From: Acidobacteriaceae bacterium
GTDB taxonomy: Bacteria > Acidobacteriota > Terriglobia > Terriglobales > Acidobacteriaceae
Reading direction: 5' to 3'
Length of the DNA stretch: 22,834 nt
NCBI GenBank assembly: GCA_031296355.1
Contig: JARLFX010000171.1
Coordinates: forward strand, 1 to 22,834
Every line of letters begins with the position of its first letter. The first letter of the stretch is position 1. Under the pieces are notes generated by a model, which made no database searches, had not been told where the DNA came from, and saw only the letters and a list, made by a program, of their open reading frames with translations. A program made the position numbers and the translations under genes. Shown here one piece after another: positions 6,869 to 21,954 of this stretch.

Positions 6869-8098
6869 ATGTCAATGAATCGTCGCCACTTTCTCAGTAT
6901 CGCCGCCATTTCTGGGGCCCTATCACCCGTATCCCGCGTCCTCTCACAGATCACGCCCGGCAAGCCTTCCGCCCCAGACAGCATTATGGATGGCGCTGCA
7001 CTGGTAGCTACGACGGATCGTGCGCGCATTTTGCGGGCAGCGAACGCTTACCTCACCCAGCGGCCCATTACGGTAACGGCATCGCATGCAACGCGCAGCC
7101 CCGGTGGCCCACACGATTATTTTTCACAAGGCGATTACTGGTGGCCAAATCCGAAGGATCCAAGCGCGCCCTACATTCAGCGCGACGGAGAAACCAATCC
7201 GGAGAACTTTGAAGATCATCGCACTGCCATGCGCCGGCTCAGCGTCCAGGTACCAGCTCTGGTCGCGGCCTATGTGCTCACCAAAGATGAGAGGTATGCG
7301 AAGCATGCTGCACTGCATCTGCGGGCCTGGTTCGTCACGCCCGCCACACGCATGAATCCCAATCTTGAGTATTCGCAGACGGTCATCGGCATGAAGACCC
7401 TCCGCGGCATTGGCATTATTGATACGCTGCACCTGGCTGAAGTCGCCCAGGCTGCCCGTTTTCTACAGCACAGCAAGGCGCTGCCGCCGAAGGAGTACGC
7501 CGCCGTGCAAAGCTGGTTCGCAGAGTACATCACCTGGCTGACCACATCGCCCAAAGGTCTCAGCGAGCAGTCGCAGAAGAATAATCACGGCGCATGCTGG
7601 GTGCTACAGGTTGCAGCCTTCTCTGCCTTCACTGGCAACACCGGGCTGACCGCTTTCTGTCGCGACCGCTTCAAGACGGTGCTTGTACCCACGCAGATCG
7701 CGCCAGACGGCAGCCTGCCGCTGGAGTTGCGCCGTACCAAGCCGTATAGCTACTCCATCTTCTGCCTGGATGTGCTGACGGATCTCTGCCAGTTACTGTC
7801 TACGCCCACAGATAATCTATGGCAGTTCAAGGGCCCGAACGGCGCGGGCATCCGCGAGGCGATCGCCTTCCTCTATCCCTACCTGAAGGACAAGAGTAAG
7901 TGGCCGTACGCGCATGACGTGCAGCATTGGGATGACTTCCCCGTGCGCCAGCCCAACCTGCTCTTTGGCGGCCTGGCCTACAACAACCTGGATTACATCG
8001 CGCTTTGGAAGACGCTCAATCCCGATTCAACAGTGGAAGAAGTGATCCGCAACTGCCCCGTCCGCCAGCCGCTGCTCTGGGTAAGCAAGCCGGCATAG
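6869..8098 (+). CDS. Tat-exported alginate-lyase-family polysaccharide lyase
   Basis: 409 residues. Predicted to cleave a uronic-acid polymer by beta-elimination outside the cytoplasm, leaving unsaturated ends. The N-terminus has a twin-arginine pattern, NRRHFLSIAA (4-13), and a hydrophobic stretch to about residue 26. The rest is helix-rich with the alginate-lyase-fold blocks DYWWPNP (89-95), NNHGACW (238-244) and RRTKPYSYSIFCLD (288-301). N239/H240, R288 and Y295 are spaced almost exactly like the Asn-His, Arg and Tyr set known for PL5 lyase A1-III (N191/H192, R239, Y246). PL38 glucuronan lyases share this fold, so the true substrate may be glucuronan, alginate or another polyuronate. AGAGGA (6852-6857) sits 11 bases before the ATG. 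The downstream cupin gene is convergent. Confidence 0.85.
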   Translation: MSMNRRHFLSIAAISGALSPVSRVLSQITPGKPSAPDSIMDGAALVATTDRARILRAANAYLTQRPITVTASHATRSPGGPHDYFSQGDYWWPNPKDPSAPYIQRDGETNPENFEDHRTAMRRLSVQVPALVAAYVLTKDERYAKHAALHLRAWFVTPATRMNPNLEYSQTVIGMKTLRGIGIIDTLHLAEVAQAARFLQHSKALPPKEYAAVQSWFAEYITWLTTSPKGLSEQSQKNNHGACWVLQVAAFSAFTGNTGLTAFCRDRFKTVLVPTQIAPDGSLPLELRRTKPYSYSIFCLDVLTDLCQLLSTPTDNLWQFKGPNGAGIREAIAFLYPYLKDKSKWPYAHDVQHWDDFPVRQPNLLFGGLAYNNLDYIALWKTLNPDSTVEEVIRNCPVRQPLLWVSKPA

Positions 8099-9939: not shown

Positions 9940-9951
9940 TAGTTGGAACTA
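9940..9951. promoter_or_regulatory. Palindrome TAGTT-GG-AACTA, candidate operator
   Basis: A perfect 5-2-5 inverted repeat between the divergent ROK and GH2 genes. Its centre is 25 bases from the centre of the neighbouring CTGAGGTCAG palindrome, and both are centred on GG. Confidence 0.4.
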
Positions 9952-9988
9952 TATCCCTTACCGTCGCACCCGCGCCATCCGAGCGCCC

Positions 9989-9993
9989 GAGGT
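9989..9993 (+). promoter_or_regulatory. Shine-Dalgarno GAGGT deciding the GH2 GTG start
   Basis: GAGGT ends 9 bases before GTG 10003, which directly precedes the twin-arginine signal. The TTG at 9943, the farthest upstream in-frame start, lacks such a site. Confidence 0.5.
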
Positions 9994-10002
9994 CCCAATC
10001 CC

Positions 10003-12495
10003 GTGAACCCCACCCGCAGACAGTTTCTCAGTACCTCAGCACTTGCCGGCGCCGCTGCAACTCTCGGCACTACTGCCCTGAATGCCACCATTGCCCGCAC
10101 GTTTTCCTCTGGCAGCCTATCCATTCCGACAGCCCTGGCAAACCACCGTCTCAGCGCCGGATGGGAATATTTTCAGGGCCCGCTGAGCGCCGCCGCTGCG
10201 TGGAAACCAGCCCCGGGCTGGAAGCCGGTTGAACTGCCCCATTGCTTCAACGCCTACGACGCCTGCGACCCCGACGTCAGCTACTATCGCGGGCAGGGCT
10301 GGTACCGCACCCATCTTCACGCCGGCAACCCCTTCCCCGGGGGCCGTACGCTGCTGCACTTTGAAGGCGCCGGGCAAACCTCCACCGTCTACATCGGCGA
10401 GACGCTAATCGGTAAGCACGTTGGCGGCTACGACGAATTCATCTGGGACATCACGGACGCCATCTCCGCCCAGCCTGACAAGACGCGCGTTCCTCTCACC
10501 GTCGTCTGCGACAACACTCCTGACGTAAACCGCATGCCAGCGGATGCCAGCGATTTCTCGCTCTACGGCGGCCTGTATCGCCACGTGAATCTGGTCTACG
10601 TGCCCGCAGTGTCCGTTGCCGCGGCGCATATGCATGTTGCGCTGCCTGAGAAGAAAGACGACAACAGCCGCGCCACCGTCAGCGTCACCGCGCGCCTGCA
10701 CAATCCCACAGCACTCACAACGCCGCTACAGATTACGCTCTCCATCAGCCGATTGAACGGCAAGCCGGTTGCCAGCAAGACTCTGAAGCTTGCTCCATGG
10801 GAAGGCGAAAAGGATATTGCCACCTTCACCATCGAGCGCCCTGATCTTTGGTCGCCGGATTCGCCCGCACTCTACGATTGCACCGTCAGCATCGCATCCT
10901 CCGTAGGCGTTTCCACGCTGCACGAGCGCTTCGGCATCCGCCGCACCGAGCTCGTCGATCATGGGCCTTTCCTGCTCAATGGCCAGCGCCTGTTGCTGCG
11001 CGGAACCCAGCGCCATCAGGACCATGCCGGTGTCGCCGCCGCCGTGCCAGACAGCGTCACCCGTCAGGAACTGCATCTGGTCAAGGAGATGGGCGCTAAC
11101 TTTATCCGCCTGGGCCACTACCAGCAATCCTCGCTGGTACTTGAACTCTGCGATGAGCTCGGCATTCTGGTATGGGAAGAGGTGCCGTGGTGCCGCTCCG
11201 GCATTGTGAGTGAGGAATTCAAACAGCAGGGCCGCGACAAGCTTACCAACATGATTGACCAGCATCGCAACCACCCCTGCGTGCTCTTCTGGGGCCTTGG
11301 GAACGAGGACGACTGGCCCGAGGAAAATGGCGGCGTGAACAAGGACGCCATCCGTGCCTACATGACGGAGTTGCACGAACTCGCCCATAAACTGGATGCC
11401 ACTCGTTACACCTCATACCGCCGCTGTGACTTCGCCCACGATATTCCTGACGCCTACTCGCCCTCTATCTGGGCCGGCTGGTACAGCGGCAGCTACACCG
11501 AGTACAAGCAGTCTCTTGAGAAGGCGCGTGAGACCGTCAAGCACCTCATCCACATCGAATGGGGAGCAGACTCGCACGCCCGCCGCCACTCTGAGAACCC
11601 TGACAAGGTGCTCTCCAAGATTGCGCTTGGTCACGGCACCGCGGAGACCGGCTTTGCCTTCCTCAACACCGGAGGCGCTGCACGCGTCTCGCGCGATGGC
11701 GACTGGTCAGAGACCTACGCCTGCAACCTCTTTGACTGGCACCTGAAGACACAGGAGACGCTGCCCTGGCTGACGGGCTCGGCTCAGTGGATCTTCAAGG
11801 ACTTTACTACCCCCATCCGCCCTGAAAATCCCGTCCCACGCGTAAACCAGAAGGGCTTGCTGGAGCGCGACATGACGAAGAAGGAAGGTTACTTCGTCTT
11901 CCAGTCTTACTGGAGCAAGCAGCCTATGGTGCACCTCTACGGCCATAGCTGGCCTGTACGCTGGGGCGATGTGGGCGAAGAGAAAATGGTCAAGGTCTAC
12001 TCAAACTGCGCCAGCGCCGAGCTCTTCCTCAATGGAAAATCACTCGGCGTACGCCAGCGCGATTCACAGAACTTCCCTGCTGCAGGCCTCCGTTGGATGA
12101 CGCCATTCCTCACAGGAAAAAATCATCTCCGCGTCGTAGCGCATCAGGACACAACCATCGTCACGGACGAGATCGACTTCATCTATCAGACAGATAAGTG
12201 GGAAAGCCCGGCCGCCTTCACCTTGCACCAGATCGCGCGCCACGGCGATCTGGTCACGGTAGAGGCAAAGCTGTTCGATGCCAAAGGTGTACTCTGCCTG
12301 GATGCGCGTACGCCGGTGCGCTTCGCGCTCAGCGGAAACGGATCCCTGCGCGACAATCTAGGCACTTCCACCGGCTCACGCGCCGTACAGCTCTACAACG
12401 GTCGCTCTGAGATCAGCCTGCACCGCGGCAGCGGCCCTGTCAGCCTCACCGTCACGGCTGAAAAGTTGCCTCCAGCTACTCTTTCCATTAGCTAG
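10003..12495 (+). CDS. Tat-exported glycoside hydrolase family 2 protein
   Basis: 830 residues from GTG 10003. A retaining exo-glycosidase of GH2 (beta-galactosidase, beta-glucuronidase or beta-mannosidase type). A Tat signal NPTRRQFLSTSALAG covers about 2-30. A sugar-binding jelly roll follows (about 45-195, with HFEGAGQTSTVYIG and GGYDEFIWDITD). An Ig-like domain spans about 205-320, and a TIM barrel about 325-615. The acid/base is predicted as E435 in FWGLGNEDDW and the nucleophile as E519 in HIEWGAD. The C-terminus resembles DUF4982 (about 640-715) and a GH2 C-terminal Ig-like domain (to the end). Substrate cannot be read from these motifs; the neighbourhood suggests trimming of uronate-rich polysaccharide side chains. 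The gene is divergent from the ROK regulator and ends at a convergent terminator. Confidence 0.9.
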   Translation: MNPTRRQFLSTSALAGAAATLGTTALNATIARTFSSGSLSIPTALANHRLSAGWEYFQGPLSAAAAWKPAPGWKPVELPHCFNAYDACDPDVSYYRGQGWYRTHLHAGNPFPGGRTLLHFEGAGQTSTVYIGETLIGKHVGGYDEFIWDITDAISAQPDKTRVPLTVVCDNTPDVNRMPADASDFSLYGGLYRHVNLVYVPAVSVAAAHMHVALPEKKDDNSRATVSVTARLHNPTALTTPLQITLSISRLNGKPVASKTLKLAPWEGEKDIATFTIERPDLWSPDSPALYDCTVSIASSVGVSTLHERFGIRRTELVDHGPFLLNGQRLLLRGTQRHQDHAGVAAAVPDSVTRQELHLVKEMGANFIRLGHYQQSSLVLELCDELGILVWEEVPWCRSGIVSEEFKQQGRDKLTNMIDQHRNHPCVLFWGLGNEDDWPEENGGVNKDAIRAYMTELHELAHKLDATRYTSYRRCDFAHDIPDAYSPSIWAGWYSGSYTEYKQSLEKARETVKHLIHIEWGADSHARRHSENPDKVLSKIALGHGTAETGFAFLNTGGAARVSRDGDWSETYACNLFDWHLKTQETLPWLTGSAQWIFKDFTTPIRPENPVPRVNQKGLLERDMTKKEGYFVFQSYWSKQPMVHLYGHSWPVRWGDVGEEKMVKVYSNCASAELFLNGKSLGVRQRDSQNFPAAGLRWMTPFLTGKNHLRVVAHQDTTIVTDEIDFIYQTDKWESPAAFTLHQIARHGDLVTVEAKLFDAKGVLCLDARTPVRFALSGNGSLRDNLGTSTGSRAVQLYNGRSEISLHRGSGPVSLTVTAEKLPPATLSIS

Positions 12496-12571: not shown

Positions 12572-15500
12572 TTACTGTGACGTAACTGTGAAGTTGAAGC
12601 TGATCGAGTGGCTCACCTGCGGCGTATTACTGTCGGCAAAGGTCACGGTCACCGTCTGCGAACCAGTGGGTGTCAGTACTGCAGGCGGAGTCGCCAGTGG
12701 GTTCGTGCATCCTGTCAGCGCCATTACGCTGGCAAGCGATATCACCATAGCCAAGGCTACCAGTGCAGCACGGCCCAACAGGCGCTTGCGACGTGCCAGC
12801 AGAAGTCCGGCAAATCCCAGCGGCGAGAGTAGCGCCCACGTCAACGGCGGCATTTCCCGCGGCGTGTTGCGATTCTGCGCGCTCAGCGTGCTATCAGTGT
12901 AGACCACTACCGAGTAGCCCACTCCCGCGGTACCGCTTATCACCGTACCGATGGGCTGGAAGCGGCAATACGCATACTGCGGCAGCCCCGAGCAGCTCAG
13001 AATCGGCGTGCCGGTGTACCCGAAGTACGGAGTAAGGATGATGCCGCTGCCGTCTGCCGGCAGTTGGGCATTGCCCCCCTGCGGTACCGAAACAGTCGAA
13101 GAGTCCACTGAAAGGGTGAAATCACCGGCTGGACGCACTACAGCAGAGGTAGAGCCGCTAAAGTTCTGTGCGCCCGCGTAGATTGACGTGAAATTATTTG
13201 CTGGGAAGCAATTGGCAATCGGCGTAGCTGCACAGCCTGCCGCATCACTAAAGGGAAGTTGATGCCCATAGGAGTAGGTCGCAACGCCGCCGCTGACCTG
13301 CCCAGTTCCCATCAATCCTGCATAGAGCGTCTCATTGGCCGGCAGGCTGCACATCACCGTGCCGCCTGCAGTTCTTGTACTCGCCGTGTTCGACAAGGTC
13401 ACAGTATTGCCCGCAATAGCGGAGACATATCCAGCCATATTGATGACAACGGCGTTGCTGCTATTTACGCAGGTCCCGACGATGTTCTGGCCTACATACA
13501 GGCTCGCAACGCTCGATGCAGAGCTAAGCACCGCTGCCGTTGTCCCATTATTCAGGCTGCCCGTCACAATCACGGGTGTGCCGGAAAAGAAGATAACCGG
13601 GCCGGTCATGTTGGTGCCGCTGATCGGAGTCACCGTAGCTGTCAGCAGTGTTCCCGGTACCCCTGAAGTCACGGTCGGCGTTAAGGTCAGGCGAGTGGTT
13701 GTGGTGGCGGGCAGCACGGTAAAGCTAATTGCGCTACCACTGCTGGCGTACACATAGCCGCTGAACACAACGCTCACGCTAACCGTGTGCGTACCCACCG
13801 TCAGGTTGGGCAGCGAAATGGCGTTTACCCCTGACGTGTTGAAGGTCGATACAGTCGGCGTGCCCCCATCCACAGTAAACGACGCCGTGCCTACGGGAGT
13901 GCCGCCATTGCTCGCGAACGACGTCGTTGCGGCTATGGTCACAATCTGCCCATAGTAGATACTGGATGTGGTCGGCTGCGTGATGGCCGTCGTCGTAGTC
14001 GACACGATAAGAAGCACCGCCTCACCCGACAGCGAACCGCTCAGGCTGCCATTATTTGCCGCACTGGTCAGCGGTGAAATCGTCGCAGTATAGTTTCCCT
14101 TCACCACAGGCGAGAAGTTCGCCGTCAACTGGCACTTATTGCCCGCTGCAACTGGCGTCCCCAACACGCAACCATTCGTCGATGCTGACGCCAGAGAGAA
14201 GACCGCAGTGTTGCCGGTAGCATTCGCAAACTGCGTTCCATTGAAAGTAAACGGCAGGTTGCCGCTGTTCGTGAAGCTAAGCGAGGCATTGCTCACTGAA
14301 CCCAAATTCGTGACCGGGAATGCGATGTTGGCCAGCGTGCGATTGATTGCTATCACACCGCCCGCACCCTGGTCCGCAATGTAGAGACTGCCATTCACAT
14401 CCGCAGCGATACCGATCGGCGCGGTAAGCCCGTTCAACAGCATGTTGCCGCTGCTGCTGCCTGCAAGATAGCCCACCACTTGCAGGTTCGTTGCATCGGT
14501 GATGTAGAGATTGCCCGCCGTGTCCACTGCGACCGCAGACGGTATCGGTGCGTTCGTGCCCAGAGGAACCGTGATCTGGCTGAAGTTTGCACCCAACTCT
14601 ACGATTTGCTTGTTGCCCTGGTCCACTATGTAGAGATCGCCAGCACCATCCAGCGCAAGATTTCCGGGTGCGCTCAGCCCGCTCAGGCTCAATGTCTTCT
14701 GTCCGCCGATGGCAAAGATTTCCACCACGCGATTCGCTCCGGTATCTGCCACATACACGTTGCCGACTGCATCCACAGCAACGCCTGTGGGCGCCGTAAA
14801 TCCTGTAGCGAACGTTGTGGCTGCACCGCCTGCCGCGGTGGTGATGGCAATACGGTTGTTCCCCGTATCCGCCACGTAGATGTTGCCCTTTCCATCAACC
14901 GCCACTTCCGCGGGATTGCTCAGGCCGGTAATCAGAGTGGCTGGCGTACCGCCTGCTGCGGCCACCTTCTTCACCGTATTGGAAGTAGCGTCCGAGATAT
15001 ACAAATTGCCGATCAGATCGGCCGCCACTCCATTCGGCTTCAGCCCTGTGCCAATCGTCGTCTGCGTGCCGGGATCCATAGAAGCCATAGCCGCCTGACC
15101 AATGCCGCTCAGGTACAGTGATGCAGCAGAGCCAGTGAAGTTAATTGCTCCTTCGCGCAGCCCAGCAGTAGTCGGCGCAAACTGCGCATAGAACACGCAG
15201 GTCTTCGCCACCGGAATCGCGGTGTTCAATGTGCAGGTATCGCCGCCCGGTGCAGAAAACTCCGTTGTGGCCGCGCCCTGCATGCCAAAGCTCTCTGCCG
15301 TAAAGTTCGCAGCAGTCACCGCCAGGAAGGCCAGCGGCTGTGTCGCCGTTGAACCAGTGGCCGTCGCCGGAAACTGGGTATTGAAGGAGAACTTGCGCAC
15401 CACCGCATTGCCGCTCTCGGTCTCGTAGAAATTACCCTGGTTATCAAAGCTAACCTGACCGCTGGGGCTGATCGTGAGCTGCGTACCCGGGCAACCATCT

Positions 15501-16933
15501 CCACCCGTATCCACAGATTTTGGCCCGGTGGAACCAGAGCAATATGCGCCTGCTACCGGTGCGGTTCCCGTCATGCCGACCAGTACCGTCGCGATACCCG
15601 TCGTTCCGTTTACCTTCCATATCAGGCGATTGGTGCTGTCGTACACATAAATATTGCCTGCCTGATCAATGCCGCCAACCGAGACAGCGCCGAAAGCCAG
15701 CTGCGTCGCGAGTACGCCATTATTGGCAGTGGTCGCGGTCAACGACCCTCCACCCGCAACGGTATACACATACCCGGCCTGCGGATTGCTCACGTTCACC
15801 AGCCCGCCCGTTCCCTGGTAGATTGCGCGGATACGCGCATTCGTGGCGTCCGCTACATACACATTCGCATTCACATCCAGAAAGAGCGCATAGGGCGAGT
15901 TGAACGTGGCATTGATCGCCAGTCCGCCATCGCCATCCGCACCGCCCACCGTGCCTGGTGTGCATCCAGTCGAGCCCTGAGCGCAGCCCGGACTGCCGGC
16001 AAATGTCGTAATGATCGCCGTCGTTCCATCCACCCGCCGAATATTGTTATTCGTTGACCCGCCCGAGGTATTGCCGTCAGAGATATACAGGTTTTCGTTC
16101 GCATCTACTGCGATATCGCGAACACTGTACATTGTGCCTGCCTTGGCCTTACCACCATCGCCGTTATATCCACCGGAATTGCCGACAATGCTGTACACGG
16201 ATCCAACTGTTGGAACCAGATTCGTTCCAAGTGAACCATTCGCCAGCAACAGTGTAGTGATTGCCGTGCTCGGATTCACCACAAACACCCGCACCAGACC
16301 GCCCGATGCACTGGTGAAAAACACATTGCCATCTTTATCGAGCGCAGGCGTACGCGGCTTAATATACGCATTCGTACCCGGGCATCCATTGCCGGAGGAA
16401 TCAAGCCCGAGCGGACTCGACGTTCCCGTATTGCAGTAGTAGCCCGATGGCGATCCGGACTTGCTGATGGCGCCAGTGCGCCCGCCAGCCAGTGCATAGA
16501 TGTGCCCAACCTGCGGCACCAGACTTGAGTTGGTGTTGGCAGCTGCGATAGCCGCAGCCAGCGCAGCACCGCCGTTATAGATCACCCGCAGCTCATAGTG
16601 CCCATAGTCGCCAATGTAGACATTGCCCAGCGAATCCACCACAGAGGTGTACGGCGTCAAGAAACTCGCCTGTGTCGGCAGGCAGCCGTCACCCGTGTGC
16701 ACTACCGCGTTGTAGGTCGGGGTGTCGTTGGAGCACAGCGTGGATGAGCTGCCGATCGCAAGACCAGCTATAGCTGAAGCGAACGGAATGGGCACCACAT
16801 TCGGAGCCTGGGCGCGCGCTGCGCCGGTCACCGCGATAGCAGCCAGCATTGCCGCCACTCGCATCACGAACCTCATGCCGAACCCTTTATCAGCCTGCGC
16901 TTGATTATTCTTGTACTCATTCAGCTGCTTCAT
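12572..16933 (-). CDS. Giant secreted NHL-propeller, Hydin-like and Ig-like repeat protein
   Basis: 1,453 residues from ATG 16933, which has AGGAG (16942-16946) 8 bases upstream; an open frame continues to 16999. A Sec signal lies at about 20-42 (ending ARAQ). Then come a first NHL beta-propeller (about 60-510), an ASPM/SPD-2/Hydin-like domain with a Cys pair, and a second propeller of six blades of the form VAVDxxGNxYVADxxNxRI. A second Hydin-like domain with paired Cys follows, then Ig-like domains. The C-terminus has two hydrophobic segments separated by ARRKR. The second ends in a lipobox-like LTGC (C1409), followed by a 44-residue tail. The protein probably works at the cell surface or periplasm in binding or adhesion; no enzymatic motif is seen. 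It lies 67 bases downstream of the TonB-dependent receptor and is probably co-transcribed with it. Confidence 0.85.
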   Translation of the reverse strand: MKQLNEYKNNQAQADKGFGMRFVMRVAAMLAAIAVTGAARAQAPNVVPIPFASAIAGLAIGSSSTLCSNDTPTYNAVVHTGDGCLPTQASFLTPYTSVVDSLGNVYIGDYGHYELRVIYNGGAALAAAIAAANTNSSLVPQVGHIYALAGGRTGAISKSGSPSGYYCNTGTSSPLGLDSSGNGCPGTNAYIKPRTPALDKDGNVFFTSASGGLVRVFVVNPSTAITTLLLANGSLGTNLVPTVGSVYSIVGNSGGYNGDGGKAKAGTMYSVRDIAVDANENLYISDGNTSGGSTNNNIRRVDGTTAIITTFAGSPGCAQGSTGCTPGTVGGADGDGGLAINATFNSPYALFLDVNANVYVADATNARIRAIYQGTGGLVNVSNPQAGYVYTVAGGGSLTATTANNGVLATQLAFGAVSVGGIDQAGNIYVYDSTNRLIWKVNGTTGIATVLVGMTGTAPVAGAYCSGSTGPKSVDTGGDGCPGTQLTISPSGQVSFDNQGNFYETESGNAVVRKFSFNTQFPATATGSTATQPLAFLAVTAANFTAESFGMQGAATTEFSAPGGDTCTLNTAIPVAKTCVFYAQFAPTTAGLREGAINFTGSAASLYLSGIGQAAMASMDPGTQTTIGTGLKPNGVAADLIGNLYISDATSNTVKKVAAAGGTPATLITGLSNPAEVAVDGKGNIYVADTGNNRIAITTAAGGAATTFATGFTAPTGVAVDAVGNVYVADTGANRVVEIFAIGGQKTLSLSGLSAPGNLALDGAGDLYIVDQGNKQIVELGANFSQITVPLGTNAPIPSAVAVDTAGNLYITDATNLQVVGYLAGSSSGNMLLNGLTAPIGIAADVNGSLYIADQGAGGVIAINRTLANIAFPVTNLGSVSNASLSFTNSGNLPFTFNGTQFANATGNTAVFSLASASTNGCVLGTPVAAGNKCQLTANFSPVVKGNYTATISPLTSAANNGSLSGSLSGEAVLLIVSTTTTAITQPTTSSIYYGQIVTIAATTSFASNGGTPVGTASFTVDGGTPTVSTFNTSGVNAISLPNLTVGTHTVSVSVVFSGYVYASSGSAISFTVLPATTTTRLTLTPTVTSGVPGTLLTATVTPISGTNMTGPVIFFSGTPVIVTGSLNNGTTAAVLSSASSVASLYVGQNIVGTCVNSSNAVVINMAGYVSAIAGNTVTLSNTASTRTAGGTVMCSLPANETLYAGLMGTGQVSGGVATYSYGHQLPFSDAAGCAATPIANCFPANNFTSIYAGAQNFSGSTSAVVRPAGDFTLSVDSSTVSVPQGGNAQLPADGSGIILTPYFGYTGTPILSCSGLPQYAYCRFQPIGTVISGTAGVGYSVVVYTDSTLSAQNRNTPREMPPLTWALLSPLGFAGLLLARRKRLLGRAALVALAMVISLASVMALTGCTNPLATPPAVLTPTGSQTVTVTFADSNTPQVSHSISFNFTVTSQ
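14388..15010 (-). repeat. Six NHL blade-coding repeats, period 123-126 bases
   Basis: The plus strand shows a recurring TTGCC-type anchor after a GTAGAGA-like stretch at 14388, 14511, 14637, 14760, 14883 and 15006. The intervals are 123, 126, 123, 123 and 123 bases. Each copy encodes the GNxYVAD core of one 41-42-residue propeller blade. Copies are diverged, so this is an old protein repeat and not a recent tandem duplication. Confidence 0.8.
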
Positions 16934-16941
16934 ACCCATAA

Positions 16942-16946
16942 CTCCT
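16942..16946 (-). promoter_or_regulatory. Shine-Dalgarno AGGAG of the NHL gene
   Basis: AGGAG is 2 bases before ATG 16939 and 8 bases before ATG 16933, which favours the latter start. Confidence 0.55.
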
Positions 16947-17000
16947 GCAATCCTTGTAGTGCTTTCAGTTCCCATACACTGCGCGCGGTGCGTCCGCACG

Positions 17001-20000
17001 TCAGTAGCGCACCGTCAGCGAAAGCTGCACGCGACGACCGTTCGTACCCACATTACCGTTCGTTCCCACTGTCTGTTGCACCACGCCAAAGGTGTTGACC
17101 ACCTGGTTTGATACCGAGCCGGAAAGGCTGGAAGCCGGGTTAGCAAGATTCGGCGTGTTGAACACGTTGAACGCTTCCGCCCGGAACTGCCCCGTTGTCT
17201 TTCGCGGCAGCGTAAAGTTACGTTGCAACGAGAACTGCGTATTGATGAATGCAGGCCCGCGCAGCGAGTTGCGGCCCACATTGCCGAAGGTTCCAAGATC
17301 GGGCGTGGCGAATGCGTCGGTATTGAACCACTCCAACACCTTATCCACACGATGGCGATTCTTCGGCAGATTCGGATTCACGCCGGGCACGGCATTGGGC
17401 CGCTGCGGACGATCACCGGTGAACGATACGTCGCCGGAGACCTGCACGTTGATCGGCATGCCCGTGCGTGCGTTGTACAGCCCGCCAAACGCCCAGTCGT
17501 TGATTACCGCTCGTACCGGTGCAACAAAGCGCCTCGTCTTCGGCAGCGTCCAGGTCCAGCCCAGCGTCAAATTGTGCGTTGCATCGTAGTCGGAGGCCGC
17601 ATAGTTCAAACGCAGGTTCTGTGGCTGCGGGAACGTTGCAGTATTCGATTGCCCGTTGCTCTGGATGTCCAGCGATTTGGAATAGGTGTACGAAGCCTGC
17701 AGGCTGAGCGACTTGCGCGCGCGGTACCGGTACTGTATCTGCAATGCGTTGTAGTTCGAGCTGCCTACCGTAGCATTATCCACAATGCCCTGCCCTGCAT
17801 ACGCATAGCCCGGATAGATTACGCGATTGGGTTGCGAAGTGCTTGCCACGGTAGAGGAAAGAGGATTCGTAGAGCTGGGTGCTCCTCCGTTGGTCGTAGG
17901 GCAATACACTGGATTCGCGTGAAAGTACGATCCTGTGCAATCGAAGATGTTGGAGTTTCTGTCAAACTGCACCATCTGGTGCCGGCCAAACTTGCCAACA
18001 TAGTTCATCTCGAAAGTTCCAGAAGCCCGTACCTTTTTCTGGAAGCCTAGATTGATCGCCTCCGTATAGGGCGTCGTGATGTTCGGGTCAGCGTAGTTCA
18101 CGCTATAGGGCGTGCCAAAATACGTGCTGCCCGGCGTATAGTTGGGCGCGATCTGCGACAGAAACTGCAATGGCTGAGAGAAGCCGCCTGCTGGATAGTT
18201 GTACTGCGCGCTGTAATGGTACGGCGCACCAATCCCGACAACGTTCGCATTGATCGCATCGTAGAAGAGGCCGATACCTCCACGGATCGTCATCGAACCA
18301 TTGCCGAACAGGTCATAGGCAAAGCCAAAACGCGGTGCCAGATTGTTATAGCGCGACCGCACATTCGCATTTCCCGAACCTGGATCACCTTCATAACCCA
18401 GACCCGCCGGCGCCGTCGGAAATACGGTGGACTGGTATCCAGGGATGAACGTGATTCCCTGTCCATCCGCCGAGTGCCATGCAAAGGGAAGCTCATAGCG
18501 CAGACCATAGTTCAGTGTCAGCTTCGAAGTCAGCCGCCAGTCATCCTGCGCATACATGTAGACGACGTTCTGTTTTGCGCCCAGGTTGGAGTAGTTCGCG
18601 ACCTGCGCCTGGTACATCAAACCAGCCAGAAAATCCGCGGCGCCCGCCTGAGTGTACTCTTGCTCTGATTCCAAAAACGGAGTCGCATCCCAGCGGTGCA
18701 GATACTGCAGATAGAGATATTGCGCACCAAACTGGAAGTTGTGGTTCCCGTGTGTCCACAGAAAGCTTTCATCCAGTTCCGTATTTTCGTTCACCGTAAA
18801 AGAGTAAGTCGAGTTATTGCTACCCACGGTAAACCGGTTGGTGATCTCGATCTTTGGCAGAGAATCTGTCGTAGCTGGCTGATACAGATTGCCGCCTAGG
18901 TCCTGCCAGGTCGTGTGATCCAGCGGATAGATGGTGTAGTTATAGCGCTTGTACCCTATACGCAGGTTGTTCAGCATCGTCGGCGTAACCACGTAGTTGT
19001 CGCCAATATTACCCGCATAAATGCCCCCGGTATTTGAGGCCTGCTCGTAGGTGGCCACACCCGGTGCCGATCCAGCCGCGGTGGCGCTGTTCGATGTCGT
19101 GTCATTCGCGTTGGTCACGTAGAAGCGGGCGTCAATCGTGTGGCGTCCGAGGTTGAAATCCACGCGCGCCAATCCGTCCCATTCATTGCGCGGCTGCTTC
19201 GCGGTCGAGTTTGTCTGTGGAAAGCCTGCGGCGTTCACCGCATTGGGCAGAGGAATGTACTGGTTCAGGAAGTTGACCGTGACCGGGTTGAAGCAAATCG
19301 ACGGCAGCTCTTCATACGGCAGAAAATTCTTGTGATACGGTCCCGCCGTTCCCAATGTGTTGTACATGGCATTGAGTGCGGTTACGCAGGGCGAAGTACC
19401 GGTTCCGCCTGCCCACTGGTAGGCCGAGTTCTGCTGCGACTGGAACCCTGAAGAATACGTCGTGCTTTCCAGCGGGTTGCGCAGGTAGCAGTTGTAATAT
19501 GGCGATCCCGGGCAACTGGGCAATCCGGTCGTCGTCGAGAGCGGGGTTGTCGTCGGGAAATCAATCGCAAAATTCGCGCACTGCATGCCGGAGAATCCGG
19601 GATACTGGCACATGTGCGGAATGCCAGGGCTGGTCGCCGTGGGCGCAACGTCATAGCCGCGCTCCAGCGCCGTCGGTGTCTCCGAACGGGAAAATACCGT
19701 CTGTACCGCGCGCAGATCCTGCGTGCCGATGAAGAAGTAAATCTTGTCTCGCTTGATAGGGCCGCCCAGTGTCGCACCAAACTGGTTCTGCACCAGACCG
19801 GGATTGATCTGCGAAATATAATCCGCCGCATTCAGTGCGCGGTTCTGGATGTACTCCCACAGCGAGCCGTGGTACTGGTTTGTGCCAGACTTCGTCAGCA
19901 CGTTCACGATACTGCCCACGTTGCGGCCATACTGCGCCTTGAAATTGTTGAGCAGGATGCTCATCTCGCCTACCATCGGGCGCGGCGGAAAATTCAAGCC

Positions 20001-20681
20001 CGTGTTGTAGAACATGTTGTTCCACAGCACGCCGTCCAGTAGAAACAGGTTCTGGTTGTTGCGCGAACCGCTGATGTTGAAGGTCGGCCCGCCGGTATCA
20101 CTGGTAAACGTCGTCGGCGCGTTCACGTTGGAGACGCCCGGCAGCAACGCCGCCAGGGACACCACGTTATTGCCGTCCACCGGAAGGCTTTCGACCATCT
20201 TGCTGTCGATCATGGCGCCGATGGTCGCGGAACGCGTATCCACCGTCGTACCTTCTGATTGAACCGTAGTCTGCTCTGACGCTGCACCCACGTTCAGCTT
20301 CGCATCCGTCCGGACATTCTGGTCGGCATCGAGCTGCAGGTTTTCCACCACGTAGGTTTCAAACTGCGGCGCAGTCACCGTTAGGGTGTACATACCCACA
20401 GGGACGTCACTGAAGCCGTACTCACCCCGGCTGTTACTCTCCGCGGTGCGCTGCGCATTCGTCGCCGTATTCACCAGCGTAATGCTCGCGCCCACCACGA
20501 CCTTGCCCTGTGGGTCCAGCACATTTCCGCCAATCGTGCCCGTGTTCTGTCCCTGGCCCAGGGCCATCACAGTACAGCCCAGCACAATCGCGAGAACTGC
20601 CACCGCGCACTTCGCTATGCCGCGGCCCATCCTTGCCAACGTACTCATGTACTCACCCGATGTATTGCTCAAATTCAACAT
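17001..20681 (-). CDS. Oar-like TonB-dependent receptor with carboxypeptidase-regulatory domain
   Basis: 1,226 residues. An outer-membrane receptor expected to import ligands, probably glycan fragments, using TonB energy. A signal peptide ends near residue 43 (ALGQG). The carboxypeptidase-regulatory-like beta-sandwich spans about 47-130 (GTIGGNVLDPQGKVVVGA, GEYGFSDVPVGMYTLTV). The plug covers about 145-290 (VESLPVDGNNVVSLAALLPG, NISGSRNNQNLFLLDG, YGRNVGSIVNVLTKSGTN). The rest is a very long beta-barrel ending in an aromatic-terminated strand (LSLTVRY), the usual outer-membrane signature. Size and domain order match the Oar-type receptors expanded in Acidobacteriota. ATG 20681 has GAAGGT upstream with good spacing; ATG 20648 is possible and would give a shorter signal peptide. 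No SusD-like lipoprotein is adjacent; the NHL protein gene follows. Confidence 0.92.
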   Translation of the reverse strand: MLNLSNTSGEYMSTLARMGRGIAKCAVAVLAIVLGCTVMALGQGQNTGTIGGNVLDPQGKVVVGASITLVNTATNAQRTAESNSRGEYGFSDVPVGMYTLTVTAPQFETYVVENLQLDADQNVRTDAKLNVGAASEQTTVQSEGTTVDTRSATIGAMIDSKMVESLPVDGNNVVSLAALLPGVSNVNAPTTFTSDTGGPTFNISGSRNNQNLFLLDGVLWNNMFYNTGLNFPPRPMVGEMSILLNNFKAQYGRNVGSIVNVLTKSGTNQYHGSLWEYIQNRALNAADYISQINPGLVQNQFGATLGGPIKRDKIYFFIGTQDLRAVQTVFSRSETPTALERGYDVAPTATSPGIPHMCQYPGFSGMQCANFAIDFPTTTPLSTTTGLPSCPGSPYYNCYLRNPLESTTYSSGFQSQQNSAYQWAGGTGTSPCVTALNAMYNTLGTAGPYHKNFLPYEELPSICFNPVTVNFLNQYIPLPNAVNAAGFPQTNSTAKQPRNEWDGLARVDFNLGRHTIDARFYVTNANDTTSNSATAAGSAPGVATYEQASNTGGIYAGNIGDNYVVTPTMLNNLRIGYKRYNYTIYPLDHTTWQDLGGNLYQPATTDSLPKIEITNRFTVGSNNSTYSFTVNENTELDESFLWTHGNHNFQFGAQYLYLQYLHRWDATPFLESEQEYTQAGAADFLAGLMYQAQVANYSNLGAKQNVVYMYAQDDWRLTSKLTLNYGLRYELPFAWHSADGQGITFIPGYQSTVFPTAPAGLGYEGDPGSGNANVRSRYNNLAPRFGFAYDLFGNGSMTIRGGIGLFYDAINANVVGIGAPYHYSAQYNYPAGGFSQPLQFLSQIAPNYTPGSTYFGTPYSVNYADPNITTPYTEAINLGFQKKVRASGTFEMNYVGKFGRHQMVQFDRNSNIFDCTGSYFHANPVYCPTTNGGAPSSTNPLSSTVASTSQPNRVIYPGYAYAGQGIVDNATVGSSNYNALQIQYRYRARKSLSLQASYTYSKSLDIQSNGQSNTATFPQPQNLRLNYAASDYDATHNLTLGWTWTLPKTRRFVAPVRAVINDWAFGGLYNARTGMPINVQVSGDVSFTGDRPQRPNAVPGVNPNLPKNRHRVDKVLEWFNTDAFATPDLGTFGNVGRNSLRGPAFINTQFSLQRNFTLPRKTTGQFRAEAFNVFNTPNLANPASSLSGSVSNQVVNTFGVVQQTVGTNGNVGTNGRRVQLSLTVRY

Positions 20682-21111: not shown

Positions 21112-21945
21112 CTAAAGAAGTTCCGGCACCTTGATGGCGTCCATATCGTCGTACGCCTGGTTCTCGCCGCCCATACCCCAGCAGAAGGTATAGTTCCGCG
21201 TGCCAACGCCGGCGTGAATGCTCCAGCCCGGCGACACTACCACCTGCTTGTCTGCAATGAGCAGATGCCGCGTCTCCTCCGCTGGCCCCATCAGGTGCAC
21301 AATGCGGTCGTCCGCCTGCATGTTGAAGTAAAGATAAACCTCCGACCGCCGCATATGCGTGTGCGGCGGCATGGTATTCCACGCACTTCCCTCTGCCAGT
21401 TCGGTAAAGCCCATCACTAGCTGGCAGCTCTTCACGCCGCCCATCCAGATATGCTTACGGATCTCCCGCTTGTTCACTGTCTCCAGCGAACCCAGCTTCA
21501 CCGGCTCCAAGTCGGCGCGCTTCGAGAGCTGTACCGGGTACTCCTTGTGCGCCGGGTAGCTCAGCAGGTAGAACTCCGCCGGCTTCGCCGCATCCGCACT
21601 GCTGAACTCCACATTCTCGTTACTGCGGCCAATGTATAGACAATCAAGGTTGTTCAGTTCATAGCTGGTATTGCCAACCTTCACCGTTCCGGCGCCGTTG
21701 CCGATATTCAACACGCCGATCTCGCGGCGCTCCAGAAAAAATGAAGACCGCAGCTCCGGCGCAGTCTCCAGCTTCAGCGCAGTCTGGGTCGGCACTGCCC
21801 CGCCGATCACCGTCCGATCCAGGTCCACATAAACCATCTCGATTGCTCCCGGCTTGAACAAATCCGTCAGTAGGAATGTCTCCCGCAGCTCAGCCGTTGT
21901 CATGCGTGGATAGCGAACCTTATCTGCCATCTCCATTATCTTCAT
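21112..21945 (-). CDS. kduI: 5-dehydro-4-deoxy-D-glucuronate isomerase (KduI)
   Basis: 277 residues from ATG 21945, which has AGGGAG (21955-21960) nine bases upstream; ATG 21954 abuts that site. KduI converts 4-deoxy-L-threo-5-hexosulose uronate to 3-deoxy-D-glycero-2,5-hexodiulosonate (EC 5.3.1.17), in the cytoplasm, downstream of pectin or other polyuronate lyases. The bicupin zinc site is seen in PPHTHMRRSEVYLYF: H195, H197 and E202, plus H244 in SPGWSIHAGVGTRNY. This is offset by one from E. coli H196, H198, E203, H245. Other family blocks such as FFLERREIGVLNIG and IRKHIWMGGVKSCQLVMGFTEL are also present. The gene starts 15 bases after the GH105 fusion gene and is clearly in its operon. 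No kduD is in the window. Confidence 0.97.
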   Translation of the reverse strand: MKIMEMADKVRYPRMTTAELRETFLLTDLFKPGAIEMVYVDLDRTVIGGAVPTQTALKLETAPELRSSFFLERREIGVLNIGNGAGTVKVGNTSYELNNLDCLYIGRSNENVEFSSADAAKPAEFYLLSYPAHKEYPVQLSKRADLEPVKLGSLETVNKREIRKHIWMGGVKSCQLVMGFTELAEGSAWNTMPPHTHMRRSEVYLYFNMQADDRIVHLMGPAEETRHLLIADKQVVVSPGWSIHAGVGTRNYTFCWGMGGENQAYDDMDAIKVPELL

Positions 21946-21954
21946 TGCGTACAT

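Follow-up and report, generated by a model that had tools for sequence, protein, structure and literature searches.

Analysis of the window, the whole 22,834-nucleotide stretch of contig JARLFX010000171.1 from an Acidobacteriaceae bacterium, revealed that a large protein with NHL repeats and immunoglobulin (Ig)-like domains, here called P0001, ends in a split Ig domain. Judged by sequence comparison and predicted models, a hairpin of two hydrophobic segments with a conserved lipobox ([GAS]C) is an insertion inside the last Ig domain, with strands A-E before it and strands F-G after it. New in this study is the identity of the Thr/Val-rich tail behind the hairpin: by the same lines of evidence it supplies the two final strands of an Ig domain whose start lies before the hairpin. 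The original prediction had proposed the tail as a sorting module of its own; this was rejected, since models, superposition and profile alignment all assign the tail to strands F-G. No description of the split-Ig anatomy was found in the open-licence PubMed Central (PMC) literature, judged by titles and the starts of abstracts.

Architecture of the C-terminal end

P0001 is encoded on the minus strand (12572..16999; open frame, 1475 amino acids), as are all of its parts given below. The likely start is residue 23 (base 16933), since the homologue P0004 begins at the equivalent methionine, and a Sec-type signal peptide ending in ARAQA was recognised by eye at residues 23-65 (16805..16933). The Pfam families NHL, TEN_NHL and SBBP matched over cut-off and Big_3_5 under cut-off; the NHL repeats and the Big_3_5 match precede the C-terminal hairpin, and the last 185 residues matched no Pfam family at E <= 0.001.

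The protein ends with MPPLTWALLSPLGFAGLLLARRKRLLGRAALVALAMVISLASVMALTGC, 44 further residues and the stop codon. Strands A-E of the last Ig domain (residues 1292-1368; 12896..13126) were assigned from the AlphaFold2 (AF2) model, with block values of the predicted local distance difference test (pLDDT) of 84-97, and match positions 1-64 of 98 in a hidden Markov model (HMM) of the intact domain. A linker in which no conserved motif was seen (residues 1369-1384; 12848..12895) leads to the first hydrophobic segment, the putative transmembrane helix TM1 (residues 1385-1402; 12794..12847), recognised in the sequence and as model helices. The basic turn RRKRLLGR (residues 1403-1410; 12770..12793), presumed cytoplasmic, doubles as the n-region of an internal type II signal. 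It is followed by the second hydrophobic segment, TM2, which ends in ALTG (residues 1411-1430; 12710..12769; model helix 120-138), and by the lipobox cysteine, Cys1431 (12707..12709), an invariant column in alignments A2, A4 and A5, whose rows were chosen for having the hairpin. After a linker defined in the AF2 model (residues 1432-1445; 12665..12706) come strand F (residues 1446-1455; 12635..12664; model strand 156-165, block pLDDT 94-96) and strand G (residues 1463-1473; 12581..12613; model strand 173-183), the latter stopping two residues short of the protein end. The order of hydrophobic segment, basic turn, second segment ending in LTGC and 44-residue tail is thus as originally described, and so is the position of the cysteine codon. 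ALTGC shows the anatomy of a type II signal, namely a basic n-region, an h-region and [GAS] followed by cysteine; such a signal requires an N-terminal location, and here the cysteine is residue 1431 of 1475.

Evidence for a split Ig domain

Comparison of split and intact members shows the insertion. An intact Ig repeat of the same type, locus L009, reads ...STLTLTGVTAGTYSVVVTGTSGTLVHTANVSVTV. In the split member P0011 the domain halts at ...TSTLTIATAA and gives way to hairpin and lipobox, after which the chain continues with GTPAGTYTVTVTATAGSTTHSATYALTVN to its end. At the end of P0046 this Ig domain stands uninterrupted. All eight split members tested aligned to both the upstream and the downstream part of P0046, a score reached by none of 200 shuffles; for L003 the downstream alignment was confined to residues 8-27 of 28. 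Identities between the window protein and P0046 are 25/71 in the upstream part and 9/27 in the downstream part.

Profile comparison revealed the same register. The intact-Ig profile was built from an alignment of 13 intact domains, two of them near-identical, obtained via searches with split members. With 103 long homologues (see below), the part before the hairpin corresponded to columns 1-75 of this profile (E 1.2e-23) and the tail to columns 72-101 (E 8.8e-10); among 50 tail alignments with shuffled columns, none did better than E 0.032. A first set of homologues gave columns 1-74 for the pre-hairpin part (55 sequences) and 72-101 for the tail (50 tails of <=60 amino acids). Taken singly, 102 of the 103 tails of the long set beat all 20 of their shuffles. 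The hairpin itself did not match the intact-Ig profile (E 0.73). The idea that the segment might be unrelated hydrophobic strands of an Ig domain, raised originally as a refuting case, therefore fails for the hairpin; the tail behind it does belong to an Ig domain.

Two AlphaFold models superpose on one contiguous solved Ig domain (2ber, residues 404-502), and searching solved structures by sequence with alignment A4 gave two weak matches (E 0.005 and 0.072). Predicted models, superposition and profile complementarity together indicate that the strands on the two sides of the hairpin belong to a single Ig-like beta-sandwich.

Conservation of the hairpin and lipobox

The first homologue search returned two proteins, one of them P0001 itself. 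A profile search then gave 48 short homologues, of which 43 carry hairpin and cysteine (the other five being P0023, P0040, P0046, P0051 and P0053); the cysteine count in this set is circular, because the detector demanded a cysteine. Searching with a long member yielded 576 proteins; among the 120 matches listed, a cysteine-blind test revealed the hairpin in 103. Of the remaining 17, four (P0098, P0110, P0128, P0147) show hairpin and GC by eye, and 13 end in an intact Ig domain or otherwise, judged on the last 110 residues. In all 103 hairpin homologues a cysteine lies 8-25 residues past the start of the second hydrophobic segment, preceded by glycine (89), alanine (12) or serine (2). A hydrophobic 12-mer occurs within the first 70 residues in 86 of the 103, and a lipobox-like stretch near the N-terminus in five.

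Pooling the 103 long homologues with the first 55 gave 158 sequences (156 distinct ends). The residue before the cysteine is glycine in 119, alanine in 30 and serine in nine, that is, one of the three in 158/158; aspartic acid never appears at position +2 (0/158). The features standing out as conserved are the basic cluster, [GAS]C and a glycine-rich linker. From first basic residue to cysteine the span is 22-28 residues in 138/158 (overall range 17-35), and 31-133 residues follow the cysteine in the homologues. At least three Arg/Lys residues are present in the basic turn in all 55 sequences of the first set, and a PROSITE-style lipobox pattern fits 48 of the 55 hairpin cysteines. Before TM1, at positions 34-19 ahead of the first basic residue, no position exceeded 0.70 bits over background in a comparison of the 158 sequences anchored on the basic cluster; since it was ungapped, it could smear out a motif whose distance varies. 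Both the cysteine and the basic turn, whose conservation had been named as the point to check, are thus kept among homologues.

The passengers are varied and include NHL, FG-GAP-like and Kelch-type repeats, a protease pro-enzyme activation domain and Ig arrays, according to annotations and Pfam lists. L030, L031 and P0052 have a Big_3_5 domain between the cysteine and the last strand pair (70.2, 75.5 and 67.3 bits; cut-off 35.5), and 124, 124 and 133 residues after the cysteine, respectively. Three apparently complete proteins of 317-320 amino acids (P0018, P0022, P0035) consist of a signal-like start, a Big_3_5 match and a split Ig domain with hairpin.

NCBIfam model NF058595 and distribution

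NCBIfam release 20.0 contains NF058595, 'invert_tail', described as 'lipo-invert putative C-terminal anchoring domain'. The window tail passes its cut-off of 37 bits (last 114 amino acids, 40.9 bits; last 185 residues, 39.4 bits), so the C-terminal module is already catalogued by NCBI. Whole-length scans of P0001 and P0004 did not report NF058595, and no mention of 'lipo-invert', NF058595 or invert_tail was found in open-licence PMC papers. The suggestion of a membrane-anchor module with a lipoprotein-type signal agrees with the conservation found here and with the NCBIfam name of a putative anchor. That name is silent on an Ig domain, yet the last third of the model consists of Ig strands. 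NF058595 also passes cut-off on the plain C-terminal Ig domain of P0046 (38.5 versus 37 bits), at profile positions 79-113 only. It is not specific for hairpin plus lipobox and can mislabel ordinary Ig ends; the split Ig domain explains both what the model measures and why it fires on a plain Ig domain.

Two Granulicella tundricola plasmids together carry 10 loci with the hairpin and lipobox arrangement. Plasmid pACIX901 of this member of the Acidobacteriaceae has seven NF058595 matches, four over cut-off, and one of the seven, L009, is an uninterrupted Ig repeat inside the protein whose C-terminal end is L005. Across six further Acidobacteriaceae plasmids there were five matches, one over cut-off, all on two of the six; one of the five, L028, covers profile positions 78-113 only. 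A scan of genome contigs with the whole of P0001 gave one locus, in a Woeseia metagenome-assembled genome. NF058595 matched over cut-off in none of 20 Woeseia relatives, none of 299 genomes of the same phylum (Pseudomonadota; for many of them scoring was limited to 14 candidates) and none of 14 control genomes. Sub-cut-off matches at E <= 0.001 occurred in 10/20, 69/299 and 5/14 of these, respectively, and many of the weak matches among those listed span about profile positions 40-100. All eight weak matches inspected in the Woeseia-relative scan resemble lipoprotein-type signals with a [GAS]C end, and four of them have a stop codon within the matched stretch, upstream of the signal. The middle of NF058595 thus acts like an ordinary type II signal peptide.

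All split homologues listed with an organism name (P0006, P0054, P0071, P0140, P0148, P0154) are Acidobacteriaceae, the lineage having been checked for the genera Terracidiphilus (under Occallatibacter), Acidicapsa and Granulicella. The original suggestion that other acidobacterial Ig/NHL proteins end in a similar way agrees with the endings found in further Acidobacteriaceae proteins. Named matches with no hairpin, among those listed, come from Thermoanaerobaculia (P0056), Thermoplasmata (P0059) and Terriglobales (P0064).

Proposed mechanism and its alternatives

The Lgt/LspA lipoprotein pathway is well established, and on this basis we infer lipidation and cleavage at Cys1431. The reading that we regard as probable is a split-Ig lipid anchor, in which the hairpin would contain an ordinary Lgt/LspA signal and the lipidated strand pair would be held non-covalently. 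After Sec export the hairpin would lodge in the inner membrane with both ends periplasmic, because the Ig domain must close; the basic turn would therefore be cytoplasmic and TM2 oriented N-in, C-out, like a lipoprotein signal. Cys1431 would receive its lipid from Lgt, LspA would cleave immediately N-terminal to it, and strands F-G would meanwhile fold onto A-E. Since the passenger would end up on the signal side of this cleavage, its link to the lipid would depend entirely on the pairing of the Ig strands. The lipidated 45-residue tail (cysteine included) would stay in the Ig domain non-covalently and tether the protein C-terminally with no sortase. Ig domains in general have their E-F loop and their C-terminus at one and the same pole, and in the last domain this pole would face the membrane. 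Since no motif for a second protease was seen, the protein would either stay doubly anchored in the inner membrane or have its hairpin cleared by general proteases.

A further-reaching version, which is possible and which we hold only tentatively, is that Acidobacteria lipidate very large proteins C-terminally in this way: LspA would sever the chain, the F-G pair would plug the Ig domain, and the hairpin would be cleared, for example by signal peptide peptidases, so that the assembly could travel on to the outer membrane. If true, strand complementation would here provide C-terminal anchoring that needs no sortase. Use of the lipobox would mean that LspA acts inside a folded domain, with non-covalent re-assembly and a C-terminal lipid tag added with no sortase, and this bears on the way in which diderm soil bacteria attach very large beta-propeller and Ig proteins at the C-terminus.

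Several results weigh against these proposals. Release from the inner membrane is unsupported, because no second cleavage motif was seen. The PROSITE-style pattern also fits 50/241 other cysteines; a second cysteine lies within 12 residues in 26/103 long homologues, and where several were in range the one after G/A/S was chosen. As to the split Ig domain, only 39/55 tails of the first set beat all 20 shuffles, 38/55 have an HMM match that begins no earlier than position 60, and the tail of P0001 itself matches weakly (its best hit covers 17-92, and its identities to P0046 are the 9/27 given above). Joining the pre- and post-hairpin pieces gave no gain in single-sequence score (mean -2.5 bits), and 435/1100 shuffled joins scored as well or better, with the linkers left in. 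The similarity of the 13 intact domains is partly selected, because they were found via split-member searches; their register is not. The predicted template modelling (pTM) scores are 0.66 and 0.63, with no inter-domain error estimate, and plain Foldseek returned nothing at E <= 0.001.

The two helices might alternatively form a permanent inner-membrane anchor extending from the Ig pole and never cut by LspA; the cysteine might still be lipidated, and the split Ig domain would only brace the hairpin. Pairing of F-G with A-E requires no cut, and no conserved second-cleavage motif was seen in the linker between strand E and TM1, both of which fit such an anchor. A pure anchor, on the other hand, needs neither a conserved [GAS]C nor a Gly/Ser/Thr-rich linker, and the distance from first basic residue to cysteine (22-28 in 138/158) is about the size of a type II signal. 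We consider this explanation unlikely, though with some weight left to it.

Peptide pheromones derived from lipoprotein signals are known, and the lipobox anatomy would also suit a release device, in which the LspA cut yields a lipopeptide product or frees the large protein and the strand pair stays unbound. Such a role is very improbable: the tail corresponds, in Ig type and in register, to the F-G pair of the domain, it models as part of the Ig domain with high confidence, and the passenger would still bear TM1-TM2 after the cut.

Still less credible is a sorting signal of the PEP-CTERM, MYXO-CTERM or GlyGly-CTERM type made of TM1 and the basic cluster, with the rest as an add-on. The stretch PLTWALLSPLGFAGLLLARRKR resembles a CTERM helix with its basic end. 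No conserved motif was seen before TM1 in the ungapped comparison, TM1 and the basic cluster are not at the extreme C-terminus, and no CTERM domain model was among those listed for the tail or the last 185 residues; for the first two of these reasons the candidate was rejected. The PEP-CTERM protein model ScyF stayed under cut-off, with its best stretch at residues 654-766 in the NHL region.

Chance or artefact, such as a functionless hydrophobic stretch, misread frame or fused gene, can practically be dismissed, because the pattern is conserved in 43/48 short and 103/120 listed long homologues (576 found) and at the 10 plasmid loci, and the frame is open throughout.

Genomic neighbourhood

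The NHL/Ig gene sits directly downstream of a gene for an Oar-type TonB-dependent outer-membrane protein (17001..20681, minus strand; Pfam OMP_b-brl_4, CarboxypepD_reg and Plug), and the spacing suggests that the two are possibly co-transcribed. At L010 and L013, likewise, a carboxypeptidase-regulatory or TonB-dependent receptor gene adjoins an Ig or FG-GAP gene of the same kind. Surrounding genes in the window lie at 6869-8098 (+), 9943-12495 (+) and 21112-21954 (-). Around the NHL/Ig gene are encoded an Alginate_lyase family protein, a glycoside hydrolase family 2 (GH2) enzyme with a start resembling a twin-arginine translocation (TAT) signal (under cut-off) and a KduI/IolB-family protein, and the neighbourhood looks like a uronate/polysaccharide utilisation region. 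Within P0001 itself, the Pfam SUKH-3 immunity model passed cut-off (25 versus 23 bits) at residues 797-843 of the NHL region; this match is most likely spurious.

Comparison with known systems

N-terminal bacterial lipoproteins are processed by the Lgt/LspA/Lnt pathway. TM2 of P0001 resembles their signals in its basic n-region, h-region, [GAS]C and the flexible linker that follows; it differs in its place, with the cysteine at residue 1431 of 1475 and both TM1 and a passenger exported by Sec ahead of it. In PEP-CTERM and GlyGly-CTERM sorting signals a transmembrane segment is followed by a basic cluster near the C-terminus. P0001 shares this pair in TM1 and its basic turn, but no recognition motif was seen, the pair is not terminal and no such family was listed for the tail. 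The Ig-like domain of Micromonospora sialidase (2ber, 1eut; residues 404-502) is contiguous, whereas the domain described here is broken by ~77 residues that include hairpin and lipobox. MYXO-CTERM, together with myxosortase, likewise serves C-terminal anchoring of surface proteins, and its invariant cysteine is proposed by the authors of that study to be lipidated (PMC11980579). That cysteine precedes a single transmembrane segment and an Arg-rich C-terminal end (PMC11980579); unlike it, the cysteine of P0001 follows the second hydrophobic segment, in the usual orientation of a lipoprotein.
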